Shown here in pieces: positions 19,437-53,009 of a stretch of DNA of 64,000 nucleotides (position 1 is the stretch's first letter; the number at the start of each line of letters is the position of its first letter). The notes beneath the pieces were generated by a model, which saw only the letters and a list, made by a program, of their open reading frames with translations, was not told the origin of the DNA and made no database searches. This DNA is from Candidatus Pyrohabitans jungbluthii. Lineage in GTDB: Archaea > Hydrothermarchaeota > Hydrothermarchaeia > Hydrothermarchaeales > BMS3B. The DNA lies in the NCBI GenBank assembly GCA_002010065.2, contig MTMD02000014.1, positions 127,167 to 191,166 on the forward strand. Direction: 5' to 3'. The translations under genes and the position numbers were made by a program.

Positions 19437-19671
19437 TTAGCTTCGCTCCACACTCGCTGCAGAATTTGAAGAATGGCTCATTTTTGGCACCGCACCTTCT
19501 GCAGGTTATCGGGCGAACAAGCTCAAAGGCGTCGCACTCTCGAGCACGCATATCCCGTGACAGGGCGCAGAACATGCTCAGCTCTGCACCATTGAAGTTC
19601 CACTTTACTATTAAATTGGAGCAGAAGATGCACTTGCTTGTGACCTGGGCTATGTCGCGGAGGTTTGTCAT
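19432..19671 (-). CDS. Small double zinc-ribbon protein
   Basis: A 79-residue protein with a first Cys set (CIFCSNLIVKWNF, then C-x-R-ARECD) and a C-terminal zinc ribbon, CRRCGAKNEPFFKFCSECG. It overlaps the radical SAM gene stop by 1 bp and is probably cotranscribed with it. It may be a metal-binding partner or a small nucleic-acid-binding protein; no further call is justified. Confidence 0.7.
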   Translation of the reverse strand: MTNLRDIAQVTSKCIFCSNLIVKWNFNGAELSMFCALSRDMRARECDAFELVRPITCRRCGAKNEPFFKFCSECGAKLR

Positions 19672-20786
19672 TACTTCTCCTTCTTCTGGAGATTTTTAAG
19701 TACTTTTTCCACATACTCTGCAACCGCCTCTTCTACGCGTGGCTTAAAGTACTCCAGCCTCTCCTTCGCTTCTTTGGATATCTCTGGCGCGCTGTGTGTG
19801 AACACCACGCGGGGGTCACGCTCTGGCTCAAGCGCTTTGCTACCTTGGAGCACATCAACGTCGCTGAAGGTTCCCAGAAGCTCTCTCCCCGCGTGCCTCA
19901 CCTCTTCCTCCACTTTTCTGCCGTGGCGGGTGCCGAACATGGAGAAGAGGGGGAACTTTGTTATCCCGTTCGCACCCGCGAGGAGCGCAACGCCTATGTT
20001 GGGGAGCTGGTCCACCCAGGTGCCTGAGATTATCTTCACCTCAGGGAAGCTTATTCTCACCGCTGCTATCACCCCTGCCTGGTACAGCGAGGCTGGCGGG
20101 GGAGAGTTTTCATAGCGCGTGCCCCTGTGGGGGTTGAGGGAGTAGATGGTAACCCTGTCCAACTTCAGCTCCTGAATTAGCTCAAGAAGCGTGTAGGTGT
20201 CGGCTACGCTCTCCCCCAGACCCAGGATTATCGTAATCCCTGTTGCATAGCCCATCTCCTTCGCTGTAATAAGCATGCGCTTTATTGGAGCTAGAGGTTT
20301 GCCAGGCACAATCTCGCTGCGAAGCTTCTTGCTCACGCATTCCACGCTTCCAGTTACACCTTCCACCGCTCTGCCGAGCTGCTCAAGCTCTTCGCCGCTG
20401 AGCACACCCACATTGAGCCACACCTTAGACTGCGCTGCATAGGCTACCATCTCCGCAAGAAGGCGCAACTCTTCTAATGTATAAGCGCCGTACCCTCCTG
20501 AGAGGAACTCCACCTCCCAGCCGAGCCTGCGCATAAGCTCCGCCTCAGCGAGGATTCGCCAGGGTGCGCGCTTCGCCTTTTCAGCCTCCCTCAGCCTTTC
20601 TTTCTGCTTCGCCATGTAGCAGAAGGCACAGCTTGCGACGGAGCACCACCAGGAGAGGAAGATTGCCCTCTCCAGGGTGACGTAGCTGCCGTGGTGTTTT
20701 AGCGTTAGCGCATTCGCCTCTGCCAGCGCCTCGAGTAAGTGCTCAGAATCGCTGAAAAGCTGGGAGACCTCTTTCGGGGTGAGCAT
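19671..20786 (-). CDS. Biotin-synthase-like radical SAM protein
   Basis: A 371-residue radical SAM enzyme. The cluster motif is CSVASCAFCYMA near residue 48, with CX4CX2C spacing. A BioB-like barrel follows (VEFLSGGYGAYTLEEL, VWLNVGVLS, GITIILGLGES) and then a C-terminal helical part. It resembles biotin-synthase-related and methylornithine-synthase-like archaeal proteins, but I cannot name the substrate. The zinc-ribbon gene follows directly. It is the last native gene before the AT-rich inserted module. Confidence 0.8.
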   Translation of the reverse strand: MLTPKEVSQLFSDSEHLLEALAEANALTLKHHGSYVTLERAIFLSWWCSVASCAFCYMAKQKERLREAEKAKRAPWRILAEAELMRRLGWEVEFLSGGYGAYTLEELRLLAEMVAYAAQSKVWLNVGVLSGEELEQLGRAVEGVTGSVECVSKKLRSEIVPGKPLAPIKRMLITAKEMGYATGITIILGLGESVADTYTLLELIQELKLDRVTIYSLNPHRGTRYENSPPPASLYQAGVIAAVRISFPEVKIISGTWVDQLPNIGVALLAGANGITKFPLFSMFGTRHGRKVEEEVRHAGRELLGTFSDVDVLQGSKALEPERDPRVVFTHSAPEISKEAKERLEYFKPRVEEAVAEYVEKVLKNLQKKEK

Positions 20787-20825
20787 ACATAAGCAGGTGA
20801 GGCTATCCAGTAAAAAGCTGTTTGT

Positions 20826-20849
20826 TCATCTCCAGCCATCCAGTCATAA
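20826..20849. repeat. Left boundary of inserted module
   Basis: The 12-bp TCATCTCCAGCC (20826-20837) is followed after 1 bp by the inverted-repeat arm TCCAGTCATAA (20839-20849). Composition turns AT-rich immediately to the right. Confidence 0.6.
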
Positions 20850-20912
20850 AGATATAAATATCCAAAAATATTATAAAAGTGTCTACACCGTAATATTCAT
20901 AAGGCGATAAAA

Positions 20913-22292
20913 ATGAAAGTAATTGAAAATCTTGAAGTAAGAAATTATAGAGGTATTAAAAATATTTCCTTCAAATCAAATTCTGTAAATATATTGGTTG
21001 GAAGAAATAACACAGGAAAATCGGCATTATTAGAATCAATAGCATTTATATTGTCATTTAACAAAAAATTTAAGGATTCAATAGGAAATGACCTATTGGA
21101 TTATATAACCGAAAAATATGAGGAATCGTATTTGGTGAATATAAATGGCAAAACTGCAGAAATTAAAGCAGAGATTAAAGATAAAGAGTACACTATTTCC
21201 ATTGAATATTATTCTGATGGTCTGCCACAGGATGAAAGACTGAATTATATAATAGAGTATTTTGAAAATTTAATAAATAGGTGGTATCGCAATTACATTG
21301 AAAAGGAGGAAAGATATACTGAGAATATCACCAATGACGTAATTAATACTTTTTTTAATGAACTAAAAAATATAAATTTAAAATTAAAACAATCAGATCT
21401 AAAAATTTTGGAAAACAATATCAAGAATAGATTATTAAGAAAAAAAATTTTTAGAACTATGGATAGATATATAGAATCTGAAATACAAACTGAGTTAGAT
21501 AAAGTTAAATCGCAAACGCAAAAAGATATCTACAATTTGCCAAAATTGATTATCACTGCTTATGAAAATTCACAAATAGTAGGATTGTATATACTTTTTG
21601 CAGAATCATTAGATTTAATAGAAAAATTTGAAAATATTAGGTCAAAAAAAGTAATTACGCTATTTTCATTCCTATCCAAATATAAATATTTTGAAATAGA
21701 TGATGAATATGAAATAATTCCATTTAAAGGTGATTTAAAGCATATTCCTCTACTTTTTGATTTTGAAAGGGTTACATATGATATAGAAGATTTACATGAT
21801 TCTGTGGTAGAAACAGGAAAAATTAGGCGTGCAGTAGATTTACTCAAAGAGAGAGATATTATTGATGATATTAGAAAAACTGAGAGAGGTCTTATGGTAT
21901 TTCCGAAACAATATGATGAGCCATTGCCTCTATCTTCAATGGGTGATGGTTTCTTAGCGTTGCTTAAAATCATATTTTTAATTGCTATAGCTGAGAGAGG
22001 AGTAATTTTAATAGAAGAACCAGAAGTGTCTCTTCACCCGGGATATTTAGATATAATTGCTGAAGAAATTGTATTAAATTCTGATAAAGTACAATTTTTT
22101 ATATCTACCCACAGCTTTGATTTAATTCAGGCTATTTTAGAAAAGGCTGAAAAATATAAAAAGCTGGATGAAATAAATATAGTAAGACTCCATTATAGAG
22201 AAGCTGCAAATCAGATTTATCCTGAAGTCTTGGATGGGGAGATGGCTAAGGAAGAAATTGATGAGATAGGAACAGATCTGAGGCAAACATAA
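20913..22292 (+). CDS. OLD-like AAA/ABC-type ATPase of a putative defence pair
   Basis: A 459-residue ATPase of the OLD/AAA_15/AAA_21 type without a fused nuclease. Walker A is GRNNTGKS (30-37), the signature-like LSSMGDGF lies near 347, Walker B is ILIEEPEVSLHPG near 368, and the switch histidine is in FFISTHSFD near 402. About 250 mostly helical, Lys/Asn/Ile-rich residues lie between the halves. It is followed 22 bp later by a TOPRIM gene. An ATPase-plus-separate-TOPRIM pair recalls PARIS (AriA/AriB) and OLD systems in design, but family membership is unproven. A TATA-like stretch lies at 20855-20875. Confidence 0.8.
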   Translation: MKVIENLEVRNYRGIKNISFKSNSVNILVGRNNTGKSALLESIAFILSFNKKFKDSIGNDLLDYITEKYEESYLVNINGKTAEIKAEIKDKEYTISIEYYSDGLPQDERLNYIIEYFENLINRWYRNYIEKEERYTENITNDVINTFFNELKNINLKLKQSDLKILENNIKNRLLRKKIFRTMDRYIESEIQTELDKVKSQTQKDIYNLPKLIITAYENSQIVGLYILFAESLDLIEKFENIRSKKVITLFSFLSKYKYFEIDDEYEIIPFKGDLKHIPLLFDFERVTYDIEDLHDSVVETGKIRRAVDLLKERDIIDDIRKTERGLMVFPKQYDEPLPLSSMGDGFLALLKIIFLIAIAERGVILIEEPEVSLHPGYLDIIAEEIVLNSDKVQFFISTHSFDLIQAILEKAEKYKKLDEINIVRLHYREAANQIYPEVLDGEMAKEEIDEIGTDLRQT

Positions 22293-22314
22293 TATTTAAG
22301 AGGGGGAAATATTA

Positions 22315-23022
22315 ATGAAGATATTCGTATTAGAGGGTCCTAATGACGTAGTTTTTATAGAATCGATTTTAAATCATCACTTTAAAAAAACAAATATACC
22401 AAAAGCCTCTAATAATAAAATAAATTTACGAAAAAGTATAAAAACGCTGATGAGTAAACTTAGAGACTCTAAAGAGTATAATTATCTTAAAAACGAATTT
22501 GGAATAATTATTTACGGTGACAACGGTAAGGATAACGTAATCTCAAAAGTTATACCCAGATTATGTTATGATTTAATAGGAAAAAATCCTCCAAAACAAA
22601 TTGAATTTCTTGTAGTCTTAGATGAGGATGGCGAACCACTTAGTAATATAATGGTCAGAATTAAAGAGGAGATTATTAATAGGAATATGCCAGATTCGGA
22701 AGTATTAGATATAAATAGTAGTAACATCAAAGTTCAATTCAATTCTGATGACAGTTATTGGATTTATATTCGAGTGTGTTTAATTCCTCATAGTTTGGAA
22801 TATCAGATTATACATAAAGCAATTGAAACAAAAATATCATTAAGCAAAAGACAACAAAGAAAACTACTAAACAGCAAAGAAGATGAGGCATTAAGAGAAA
22901 TTGCAAATTTACTGGATGTTTCAAAGGAAGAATTGTTCCGACTTAGTGTTTTTGATGGTTGGTTTCTTGGTAGCGAATGGTACGACGGGATAATTCAGAA
23001 AATCGGAAATTTTATTAGTTAA
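22315..23022 (+). CDS. Stand-alone TOPRIM nuclease-like protein
   Basis: A 235-residue protein with TOPRIM hallmarks: FVLEGPNDVVF gives the catalytic Glu (E7) and D11, and FLVVLDEDGEP gives the DxD pair (D103, D105). IIIYGDNGKDN lies between. It resembles archaeal DUF3226- or DUF4435-like TOPRIM proteins that accompany OLD-like ATPases. It is preceded by a good AGAGGGGGAAA ribosome site and shares the AT-rich codon use of the ATPase. The likely role is a metal-dependent nuclease effector controlled by the ATPase; this is inferred from architecture. Confidence 0.7.
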   Translation: MKIFVLEGPNDVVFIESILNHHFKKTNIPKASNNKINLRKSIKTLMSKLRDSKEYNYLKNEFGIIIYGDNGKDNVISKVIPRLCYDLIGKNPPKQIEFLVVLDEDGEPLSNIMVRIKEEIINRNMPDSEVLDINSSNIKVQFNSDDSYWIYIRVCLIPHSLEYQIIHKAIETKISLSKRQQRKLLNSKEDEALREIANLLDVSKEELFRLSVFDGWFLGSEWYDGIIQKIGNFIS

Positions 23023-23063
23023 CTTACGATTATTTCTTTTTTTATGTTGTTTTAAGCTAATTA

Positions 23064-23089
23064 TTATGACTGGAAGATCATCTCCAGCC
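23064..23089. repeat. Right boundary of inserted module
   Basis: The inverted-repeat arm TTATGACTGGA (23064-23074) is followed after 3 bp by the second copy of TCATCTCCAGCC (23078-23089), which encodes the last residues and stop of cbiT on the minus strand. Confidence 0.6.
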
Positions 23090-23683
23090 GGTGATAATAA
23101 AAACAGGATTCATTGCCTTCATCATTGTAACGCCCTCGCGCACCTTCTCGGCTCTTGCAAAGCTGGCAAGCACCACCTCCTGCTCAAAGTTCGCTGCCTC
23201 GAGGGCAGCGCACGCTTTATGGAGCGTCTCCAGGGTTATCGCAGTTATCACCACTCGGCCCCCAGGATGCAGCTTTTTTGCTATTGCTTCGATTATCTCC
23301 TCCATCCTGCCCCCGCTTCCGCCTATAAACACCCTGTGTGGCGCCTCGAGGTTGCGCAGTGCCTCGGGAGCCTCGCCCTCAACTACGCGCGCCTCCCCGT
23401 CACCAGGCACCGCATTGCTGGCAACCACGCCGAACTTCGCCAGGTTTCGCCTCAGAAGCTCCAACGCTTCCCCACGCTTCTCCACAGCGTAAACCCTCGC
23501 CCCGAGCAGAGCCGCCTCAACGGTAACGCTACCCGTGCCCGCGCCTATGTCGTAGAGCACGTCACCGCGACAAAGCCTGAGCTTCGCCAAAGCTAAGCTG
23601 CGCACCTCCTCCTTGGTCATGGGCACATTGCCGCGCTCGAATGCTTCGTCGGGTATTCCCGGCACTGTACGCTTCATTCCCAC
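23078..23683 (-). CDS. cbiT: Cobalt-precorrin-6B/7 C15-methyltransferase (decarboxylating)
   Basis: A 201-residue Rossmann methyltransferase. It begins with the family-typical GIPDEAFERGNVPMTKEEVR, then the SAM motif DIGAGTGSVTVEAA near residue 45 and VFIGGSGGRMEEI near 119. It methylates C15 and decarboxylates the C12 side chain in anaerobic corrin synthesis. It overlaps cbiE by 10 bp. Its very end carries the 12-bp repeat shared with the other side of the AT-rich module, yet the gene itself appears intact. Confidence 0.95.
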   Translation of the reverse strand: MGMKRTVPGIPDEAFERGNVPMTKEEVRSLALAKLRLCRGDVLYDIGAGTGSVTVEAALLGARVYAVEKRGEALELLRRNLAKFGVVASNAVPGDGEARVVEGEAPEALRNLEAPHRVFIGGSGGRMEEIIEAIAKKLHPGGRVVITAITLETLHKACAALEAANFEQEVVLASFARAEKVREGVTMMKAMNPVFIITGWR

Positions 23684-24279
23684 ACCACCATTATGCTGTT
23701 CCCGCCAAAGCTTTCCTTTGAGACCTCCTCAAGCGTCGCCACGACGACACGTTCCTCTGGTAAGCTCAAGCTTTCGCACACGGCGCAGCGACGGTTTCCC
23801 CAGCGGGCGAGTAGCGCTTTCGCAACCTCTTGGGGCAGGTTTTTTGCATCGCACAATATAACAATCTTCTCCTCTTTGCGAAGCTCCTTCAAGGCATCGT
23901 CGCGCCCATGTAAGCTTATAACCCTCGCCCCGTTCCACGGCTCCTTAATCTTGGCAAAGCAGAGCTGCACTGAGCTTATCCCTGGGATCACCTCAAGCAT
24001 ATCCTCGGGGAACCTCTTCTTGAGAAACCGGAGGATGCTGAACAGTGTGGCGTCGCCAGAGGTAAGTACCGCGACGTCTTTGCGAGAATGCTTCTCAATA
24101 AACTCCACCACCTCTTCCAGGTTGCGGCTTATCACCATTCTTGGCTTTCCGCGGGGCGCAAACCTCAGCGCAGTCTCGCCGCCTGCAAAGGCAGATGCAC
24201 GAGCGATGGCGCGCCTTGCCGCCGGGGTTAGGTACTCCTCACTTCCAGGGCCAACGCCTACAACAAGTATCTTCCCCAC
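23674..24279 (-). CDS. cbiE: Cobalt-precorrin-7 C5-methyltransferase
   Basis: A 201-residue tetrapyrrole methyltransferase. VVGVGPGSEEYLTPAARRAI is at the N terminus, VLTSGDATLFSILRFL lies near 90, and VIPGISSVQLCFAKI lies near 117. It pairs functionally with CbiT; in many genomes the two are fused as CobL. It overlaps cbiT by 10 bp and cbiD by 22 bp, so the three genes form one tightly coupled transcript. Confidence 0.94.
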   Translation of the reverse strand: MGKILVVGVGPGSEEYLTPAARRAIARASAFAGGETALRFAPRGKPRMVISRNLEEVVEFIEKHSRKDVAVLTSGDATLFSILRFLKKRFPEDMLEVIPGISSVQLCFAKIKEPWNGARVISLHGRDDALKELRKEEKIVILCDAKNLPQEVAKALLARWGNRRCAVCESLSLPEERVVVATLEEVSKESFGGNSIMVVWE

Positions 24280-48134: not shown

Positions 48135-49623
<1,489 letters not shown>

Positions 49624-49736
49624 GAGCACGGCACCGCTAACCGGGCACCAAATCTGCCGAGCCTGTTCCAGAAAGTTTAACACGTTAGGGCTCGGGTAAT
49701 GAGGTGGGCGCACACATAGTGTGCGTCTGTTAATCC

Positions 49737-49809
49737 GGGCCCGTAGCTCAGTTGGAAGAGCATCCGGTTTGCAGCCGGAAGGCCACGGGTTCAAATCCCG
49801 TCGGGTCCA
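49737..49809 (+). tRNA. tRNA-Ala (UGC)
   Basis: A 73-nt tRNA in the 16S-23S spacer. The acceptor stem GGGCCCG pairs with CGGGTCC, including the G3-U70 wobble that identifies tRNA-Ala. The anticodon TGC is at 49770-49772, the T arm has GGTTCAAATCC, and the discriminator base is A. CCA is not encoded, except for a chance following C. No intron is seen. Spacer tRNA-Ala is standard in euryarchaea. Confidence 0.97.
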
Positions 49810-49907
49810 CTTCACCCTTTCATCATCATGGTCATCTAGTGACTGAGGCCCGCAATCTCGCGGTTGCGGGTCAATAGGCCGAGAGCGATTATGATAATCG
49901 CTCGCTG

Positions 49908-49950
49908 AGGCCCCGCATAGGTCTGGCTGAGTGCAATCTGACTCTGTGCC
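49908..49950 (+). other. Left strand of 23S processing stem (BHB)
   Basis: Positions 49908-49930 pair perfectly over 23 bp with 53035-53057. Next comes a canonical bulge-helix-bulge: GTGC (49931-49934) pairs with GCAC (53028-53031), and the two 3-nt bulges are AAT (49935-49937) and TGA (53032-53034). The inner helix TGACTCTGTGCC (49939-49950) pairs with 53015-53026. It is the splicing-endonuclease site for pre-23S. Confidence 0.9.
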
Positions 49951-49956
49951 CCAGTA

Positions 49957-53009
<3,053 letters not shown>

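Follow-up and report, generated by a model that had tools for sequence, protein, structure and literature searches.

A probable two-gene ATPase-TOPRIM immune module on a recently inserted cassette in an archaeal chromosome

In Candidatus Pyrohabitans jungbluthii, two adjacent AT-rich genes are predicted to encode an ATPase and a nuclease-like TOPRIM protein. Do these genes form a defence system, to which kind does it belong, and how did it enter the chromosome? The earlier note on this DNA described them as a split pair and a probable defence system, PARIS-like or a new archaeal branch, that had arrived recently. In the window, i.e. the whole 64-kb stretch of DNA that was analysed, positions 20913-23022 hold two intact open reading frames on the plus strand, exactly where that note had placed them. 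The low GC is clear: the ATPase and TOPRIM genes have a GC of 0.28 and 0.29 and a GC3 of 0.20 and 0.23, while the medians of the window are 0.53 and 0.63, and their GC is the lowest among its 45 large ORFs. The TOPRIM gene starts 22 nt 3' of the ATPase gene and is preceded by a ribosome-binding-like site, GAGGGGG. The genes flanking the cassette that carries the pair (Table 1) belong to cobalamin synthesis and the radical SAM group, and no defence gene adjoins it in its neighbourhood in the window. Archaeal 16S rRNA, tRNA and 23S rRNA genes lie in series at 48135-53008 and account for the high GC of that part of the window. That the host is an archaeon, as had been proposed, follows from the archaeal 16S and 23S rRNA genes that share the window with the pair.

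The clearest evidence on the arrival of the pair comes from a genome of the same genus. G006 aligns as contiguous DNA to positions 19671-20837 and 23078-24279 of the window with 93-94% identity, and the two pieces of the alignment overlap by exactly 12 bp. In this empty site, which reads CTGTTTGT-TCATCTCCAGCC-GGTGATAATAAAA, the flanking genes are joined. The cassette is also missing from G007, G008 and G009 of the same genus. Its 11-bp terminal inverted repeats are perfect, and the 11-mer TCCAGTCATAA occurs just twice in the 64 kb; among about 192,000 random end pairs taken from the cassette, none reached 11 bp at the position of the inverted repeats. Elsewhere in the genome the 11-mer occurs twice more; these copies were considered as ends of other elements and rejected as chance matches, both lying within unrelated coding genes, and no second element bearing the cassette ends was found in the host genome. 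The arrival is proven: the pair, the only genes on a small stretch of foreign DNA, sits in a clean, recent insertion between 12-bp direct repeats, with inverted-repeat ends. Recent arrival, earlier argued from base composition, is no longer a composition argument alone, because the empty site is present in the same genus.

Table 1. Coordinates of the cassette, its ends and its two genes in the window.
Feature	Position	Strand	Basis or remark
Left 12-bp direct repeat TCATCTCCAGCC, target duplication or attachment core	20826..20837		Repeat search; single copy in the G006 empty site
Inserted cassette, 2,240 bp	20838..23077		Missing from four same-genus genomes
Left terminal inverted repeat TCCAGTCATAA, 11 bp, 1 nt inside the direct repeat	20839..20849	+	Repeat search
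ABC/OLD-type ATPase, 459 aa	20913..22292	+	ORF, Pfam/PADLOC matches, motifs, model
TOPRIM nuclease-like protein, 235 aa, divergent DUF3226 relative	22315..23022	+	ORF, profile, model
Right terminal inverted repeat TCCAGTCATAA, 11 bp, 3 nt inside the direct repeat	23064..23074	-	Repeat search
Right 12-bp direct repeat	23078..23089		Last 12 nt, with stop codon, of a minus-strand cbiT-like methyltransferase gene

How the cassette moved is a separate question. Terminal inverted repeats, a target duplication and a known empty site are all features of a transposon, and the cassette encodes no recombinase gene. Mobile insertion cassettes (MICs, e.g. MIC231) carry passenger genes between insertion-sequence-like ends and have no transposase. 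The cassette of the window shares all of this with them, and its 12-bp repeat falls within the 10-13 bp reported for target duplications of IS4/IS231-type transposases (PMC2266710). However, its ends match no known element, a match to the 5'-CAT ends is not seen on both sides, and no IS4-type transposase (PF01609) was found in the host genome. Instead of transposing, a small circle may have been integrated site-specifically by a recombinase supplied in trans, a possibility that we put forward tentatively. Each inverted repeat is set off from its direct repeat, by 1 nt on the left and 3 nt on the right; such an offset is unusual in transposons and would suit a recombinase site. Joining of the cassette ends would place the 12-bp core in a 16-bp centre flanked by two 11-bp inverted arms, and this core coincides with the end of the cbiT-like gene. 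A Thermoplasmata relative (L033:1465-3959), in which a pair lies between 138-nt direct repeats that are 93% alike and resemble the 3' end of a PhoU-like gene, also counts for integration; among the other pairs examined it is the only one with a long flanking repeat. Against integration stand the empty site in G006, which has no inverted arms around the core, and the length of the duplication, which would fit an IS4/IS231-type transposase. None of the other pairs searched shares the ends of the cassette, several short chance matches having been discarded, and no tRNA was found as insertion site at the loci tested. The weight given to integration answers the question of mobility and cannot be added to that of the alternative functions discussed below.

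Next, we turn to the proteins. The ATPase carries the ABC/OLD-type motifs that had been read from its sequence: Walker A (GRNNTGKS) at residues 30-37 and, at 365-371 where a Walker B near 368 had been noted, Walker B with the catalytic Glu (ILIEEPE). There is also an MGDG signature at 343-346, an H-loop (STHS) at 398-401, a long helical insertion at 108-208 and a conserved DLR at the C-terminal. In Pfam it matches AAA_15 (9.7e-27, 95 bits) and AAA_21 (1.5e-20, 74.9 bits), and the domain search found no nuclease domain in it, in agreement with the earlier description. Its top PADLOC match is PDC-M38A (PDLC04608; 1.5e-29, residues 126-457). Its PADLOC matches to AriA are unspecific, because those models are nearly equal to Pfam AAA_15/AAA_21 in length and match coordinates. 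An AlphaFold2 model (pLDDT 76) has an SMC/Rad50-type ABC head and the long helical insertion, the latter partly at low confidence; GajA, PtuA and retron ATPases are among its structural matches. When a profile of the ATPase with nine relatives is compared with the PDB, OLD is best (1.2e-13), and PtuA, AriA and GajA are also found.

Searches with the single sequence gave no near relative in viral contigs, phages, plasmids or genome contigs, and the ATPase alignment gave none in viral contigs; the relatives came from a phylum search with the ATPase and from alignment-based searches. In the ATPase tree the protein of the window pairs, with good support, with that of a Thermoplasmata survey genome (L144, 43% identity). 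The clade around the two is diverse, mostly archaeal and mixes phyla.

The second protein has a complete TOPRIM catalytic signature. To the E7 and D103-E-D105 recognised earlier can be added D11, G71-K72 and E162, which most of about 50 relatives retain. Across 52 aligned relatives the acidic residues are strongly conserved (E7 in 46/47, D103 in 44/44, D105 in 39/44, E162 in 29/31, and D or E at position 11 in 48/48); D105 is replaced by Asn in some relatives, which would mean a weaker two-metal site in those. The predicted model (pLDDT 85, pTM 0.84) has a TOPRIM-type fold in which the motifs hold; their failure in such a model had been named beforehand as a sign against the defence reading. 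A search of it with Foldseek alone found nothing significant. With VIA-align the best match is PH0156 of Pyrococcus horikoshii (2p62; Z 12.9, 194 residues, 3.8 A), which a profile search identifies as a DUF3226-type protein. OLD nuclease TOPRIMs come next (Z 9.4-9.6, 163-171 residues), before unrelated folds. AriB of PARIS gives Z 6.4 and retron Eco2 about 6, and a structural Z under 8 is by itself not decisive.

The relation to DUF3226 is distant in sequence. TOPRIM profiles match PH0156 at 7e-4 and 4e-4, and five of ten relatives match DUF3226 at E up to 0.1. The protein of the window itself reaches only E 0.0079 and 16.4 bits against the Pfam model (PF11536), under its gathering score of 27. 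Between the close TOPRIM group and the canonical DUF3226 group, a profile-profile comparison aligned just 23 columns, at the EGxxD motif (74.6%); the case for a link is therefore made by fold and neighbourhood, not by full-length sequence. What is shared with PH0156 and with the pair of M. jannaschii is the TOPRIM fold and, in the latter, the gene order after the ATPase.

Can the pair be placed in a known system? PARIS is defined by an ATPase that scores at least 32 bits for AAA_15 or 27 bits for AAA_21, plus a DUF4435 partner (PMC9122126). The ATPase is well above both scores. The TOPRIM protein, however, gives no Pfam match to DUF4435 (PF14491) up to E 1 and no PADLOC match to AriB, and membership in PARIS was rejected on the DUF4435 part of this rule. 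The PARIS-like reading of the earlier note is thus not borne out, the fold being less like AriB than like DUF3226 and OLD. What the pair has in common with PARIS is a separate ABC ATPase and TOPRIM effector, the existence of fusions and, probably, a logic of sensor plus effector.

PDC-M38, a PADLOC candidate consisting of an ATPase (A) and a TOPRIM/DUF3226 protein (B) that also occurs on the extrachromosomal element of M. jannaschii and on the small enterobacterial plasmids described below, is closer. The ATPase matches it best and, of nine close TOPRIMs, six give PDC-M38B (PDLC04620) and three give RT-Toprim models of retron I-C, at best 8e-7; the protein P0003 also gives PDC-M38B, at 1.7e-5. 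The TOPRIM of the window, in contrast, matches no PADLOC model significantly, PDC-M38B included. The literature search found no paper naming DUF3226 or PDC-M38 and no published test of the PDC-M38 candidate. We class the pair as a divergent archaeal member of a catalogued kind, with PDC-M38 nearest. Of the proposed new archaeal branch, the diverse and mostly archaeal clade stands, but the kind is already catalogued and bacteria have it as well. What is chiefly new is the minimal mobile cassette and the empty site that can be seen for it; the class of system is not new.

OLD nucleases of classes 1-3 and GajA also combine an OLD-type ATPase with an OLD-type TOPRIM site; the acidic signature of the latter (E, DxD and an additional acidic residue, within a TOPRIM fold) is present in the protein of the window. 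They differ in being one chain, whereas the window has two chains, and the cassette has no UvrD-like helicase or retron partner. This likeness gives the main rival explanation, a split OLD enzyme: one ATP-gated machine of two proteins that would nick or cut invading DNA directly instead of killing the cell through RNA. It draws on OLD being the best PDB profile match of the ATPase family, on the higher Z of the OLD C-terminal nuclease (about 9.5) than of AriB against the TOPRIM model, and on the fused version described below. On the other hand, the best structural match is PH0156, a stand-alone DUF3226 protein, some close TOPRIMs match the retron I-C models and the Eco2 TOPRIM is an RNase (PMC12405507), and the substrate is not readable from the fold. 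We regard a split OLD enzyme as rather unlikely.

Further evidence comes from the distribution of the two genes. The survey used the TOPRIM profile alone against 1,179 archaeal genomes in three groups, namely the phyla of the three hosts of relatives; these genome searches are samples, with E-values per genome. Matches occur in 39 of the 1,179 genomes, a sporadic distribution. Without the loci from which the profile had been made, there are 36 TOPRIM loci, and as one of them (L137) lies at a contig end, 35 can be assessed. The ATPase is directly upstream on the same strand in 32 of these, the frames mostly overlapping or abutting; the profile was built on TOPRIMs found beside ATPases, and unpaired DUF3226 proteins may exist beyond it. 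The remaining three are a decayed pair (L114), a broken TOPRIM without ATPase (L146) and a marginal match (L149). Pairing across archaea is near-obligate, and homologues that never co-occur, the other finding that had been named as fatal to the proposal, were not what we saw.

Among the 32 paired loci, one archaeal genome has the ATPase and TOPRIM fused in a single frame of 624 aa (L141:115-1986). Other loci show the pair in varied states and places. In Archaeoglobus sp. (L036:3992-4711) an ATPase remnant of 239 aa has kept Walker A, the part with Walker B is deleted in frame and there is no TOPRIM; it lies between genes resembling two phenylalanyl-tRNA synthetase subunits. In G020, a relative at the level of class, a pair (L031:4001-5769) lies inside a 2-oxoacid:ferredoxin oxidoreductase-like operon and its last codons overlap the next gene; the flanking subunit genes were identified by eye from the sequence. 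Different, HEC-01-like (PADLOC) ATPase-TOPRIM pairs are found at L006:92-1846 in G003 of the same family and at L009:3-1346 in G020.

The sporadic distribution also bears on a cellular role in DNA or chromosome upkeep. Cran1 of Saccharolobus islandicus, an essential ATPase-nickase of the OLD family, acts in the cell cycle rather than in defence (PMC12796447), and the pair could in principle do something similar. Genes of the Cran1 type are vertically inherited, the opposite of what is seen for the pair in the window: it is AT-rich and newly inserted, is missing from all four same-genus genomes and is present in few of the archaeal genomes surveyed. This role was already disfavoured and we consider it very improbable.

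Two-gene versions are found beyond these archaeal chromosomes. An extrachromosomal element of M. jannaschii carries an ATPase followed by DUF3226; there (L060:4001-5733) the annotation splits the ATPase, which may be broken, into two frames, and the DUF3226 gene downstream of them is intact. Others are present in planctomycetes, and about 140 mostly 4.2-kb enterobacterial plasmids, mainly of Klebsiella (L061, L062, L150), bear an ATPase and DUF3226 pair. On plasmids of about 4.2 kb it makes up most of the cargo not needed for replication, and in the window the pair is the sole cargo of its cassette, as would be expected of an addiction or toxin-antitoxin module with the TOPRIM as toxin and the ATPase as restraint, whose main effect would be to retain its own cassette or plasmid. 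This is improbable in our judgement: the effector gene comes after the ATPase, decayed copies exist (L036, L146, L114), and in PARIS deletion of either gene is non-toxic and a toxin-antitoxin function is excluded (PMC9122126).

With moderate confidence we favour reading the pair as an immune module of two genes, ABC-ATPase and TOPRIM, an archaeal relative of PDC-M38 on a 2.24-kb mobile cassette, in which a nuclease would be restrained by the ATPase and released on infection. For it we count the motifs and folds, the constrained catalytic residues, the pairing, the sporadic spread, the phylum-mixing clade, the plasmid siblings and the matches to RT-Toprim and PDC-M38B. Against it are the failure of the TOPRIM of the window to match PADLOC models, the lack of defence genes next to the cassette, the Asn at D105 in some relatives and the precedent of Cran1. 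The probable defence system of the earlier note is thereby supported as probable.

The roles of sensor or restraint and of effector are inferred from precedents, namely retron Eco2 (PMC12405507) and PARIS, where a hexamer of the ATPase AriA holds the TOPRIM tRNase AriB until a phage protein binds (PMC12409363). By analogy, the ATPase may dimerise or oligomerise through its long helical insertion, bind the TOPRIM protein and keep it inactive. A viral trigger, or a state of the viral DNA, would alter the ATPase in its role as sensor, and the TOPRIM, probably a two-metal nuclease, would be released or activated. It would then cut RNA (tRNA or bulk) or nick DNA, and the infected cell or the virus would be stopped. 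RNA is our first guess for the substrate, because the TOPRIM effectors of comparable systems, AriB (PMC12409363) and that of Eco2, are RNases.

At this locus the entry of a probable two-gene immune module into a chromosome can be placed to the exact base, by comparison with a relative, 94% identical, that has the empty site. Possibly, a minimal passenger cassette of 2.2 kb, with only inverted-repeat ends and without a recombinase, is enough to carry a complete immune system when moved in trans, and such stand-alone cassettes may have brought this divergent, mostly archaeal branch from one phylum to another; we offer this as a tentative generalisation. The ATPase and TOPRIM pair is only half recognised by the standard defence and domain libraries. 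It is closely paired and sporadic over several archaeal phyla, and therefore merits testing as a system. The bacterial relatives on plasmids provide a tractable model, and the movement of small defence pairs becomes directly testable in archaea.
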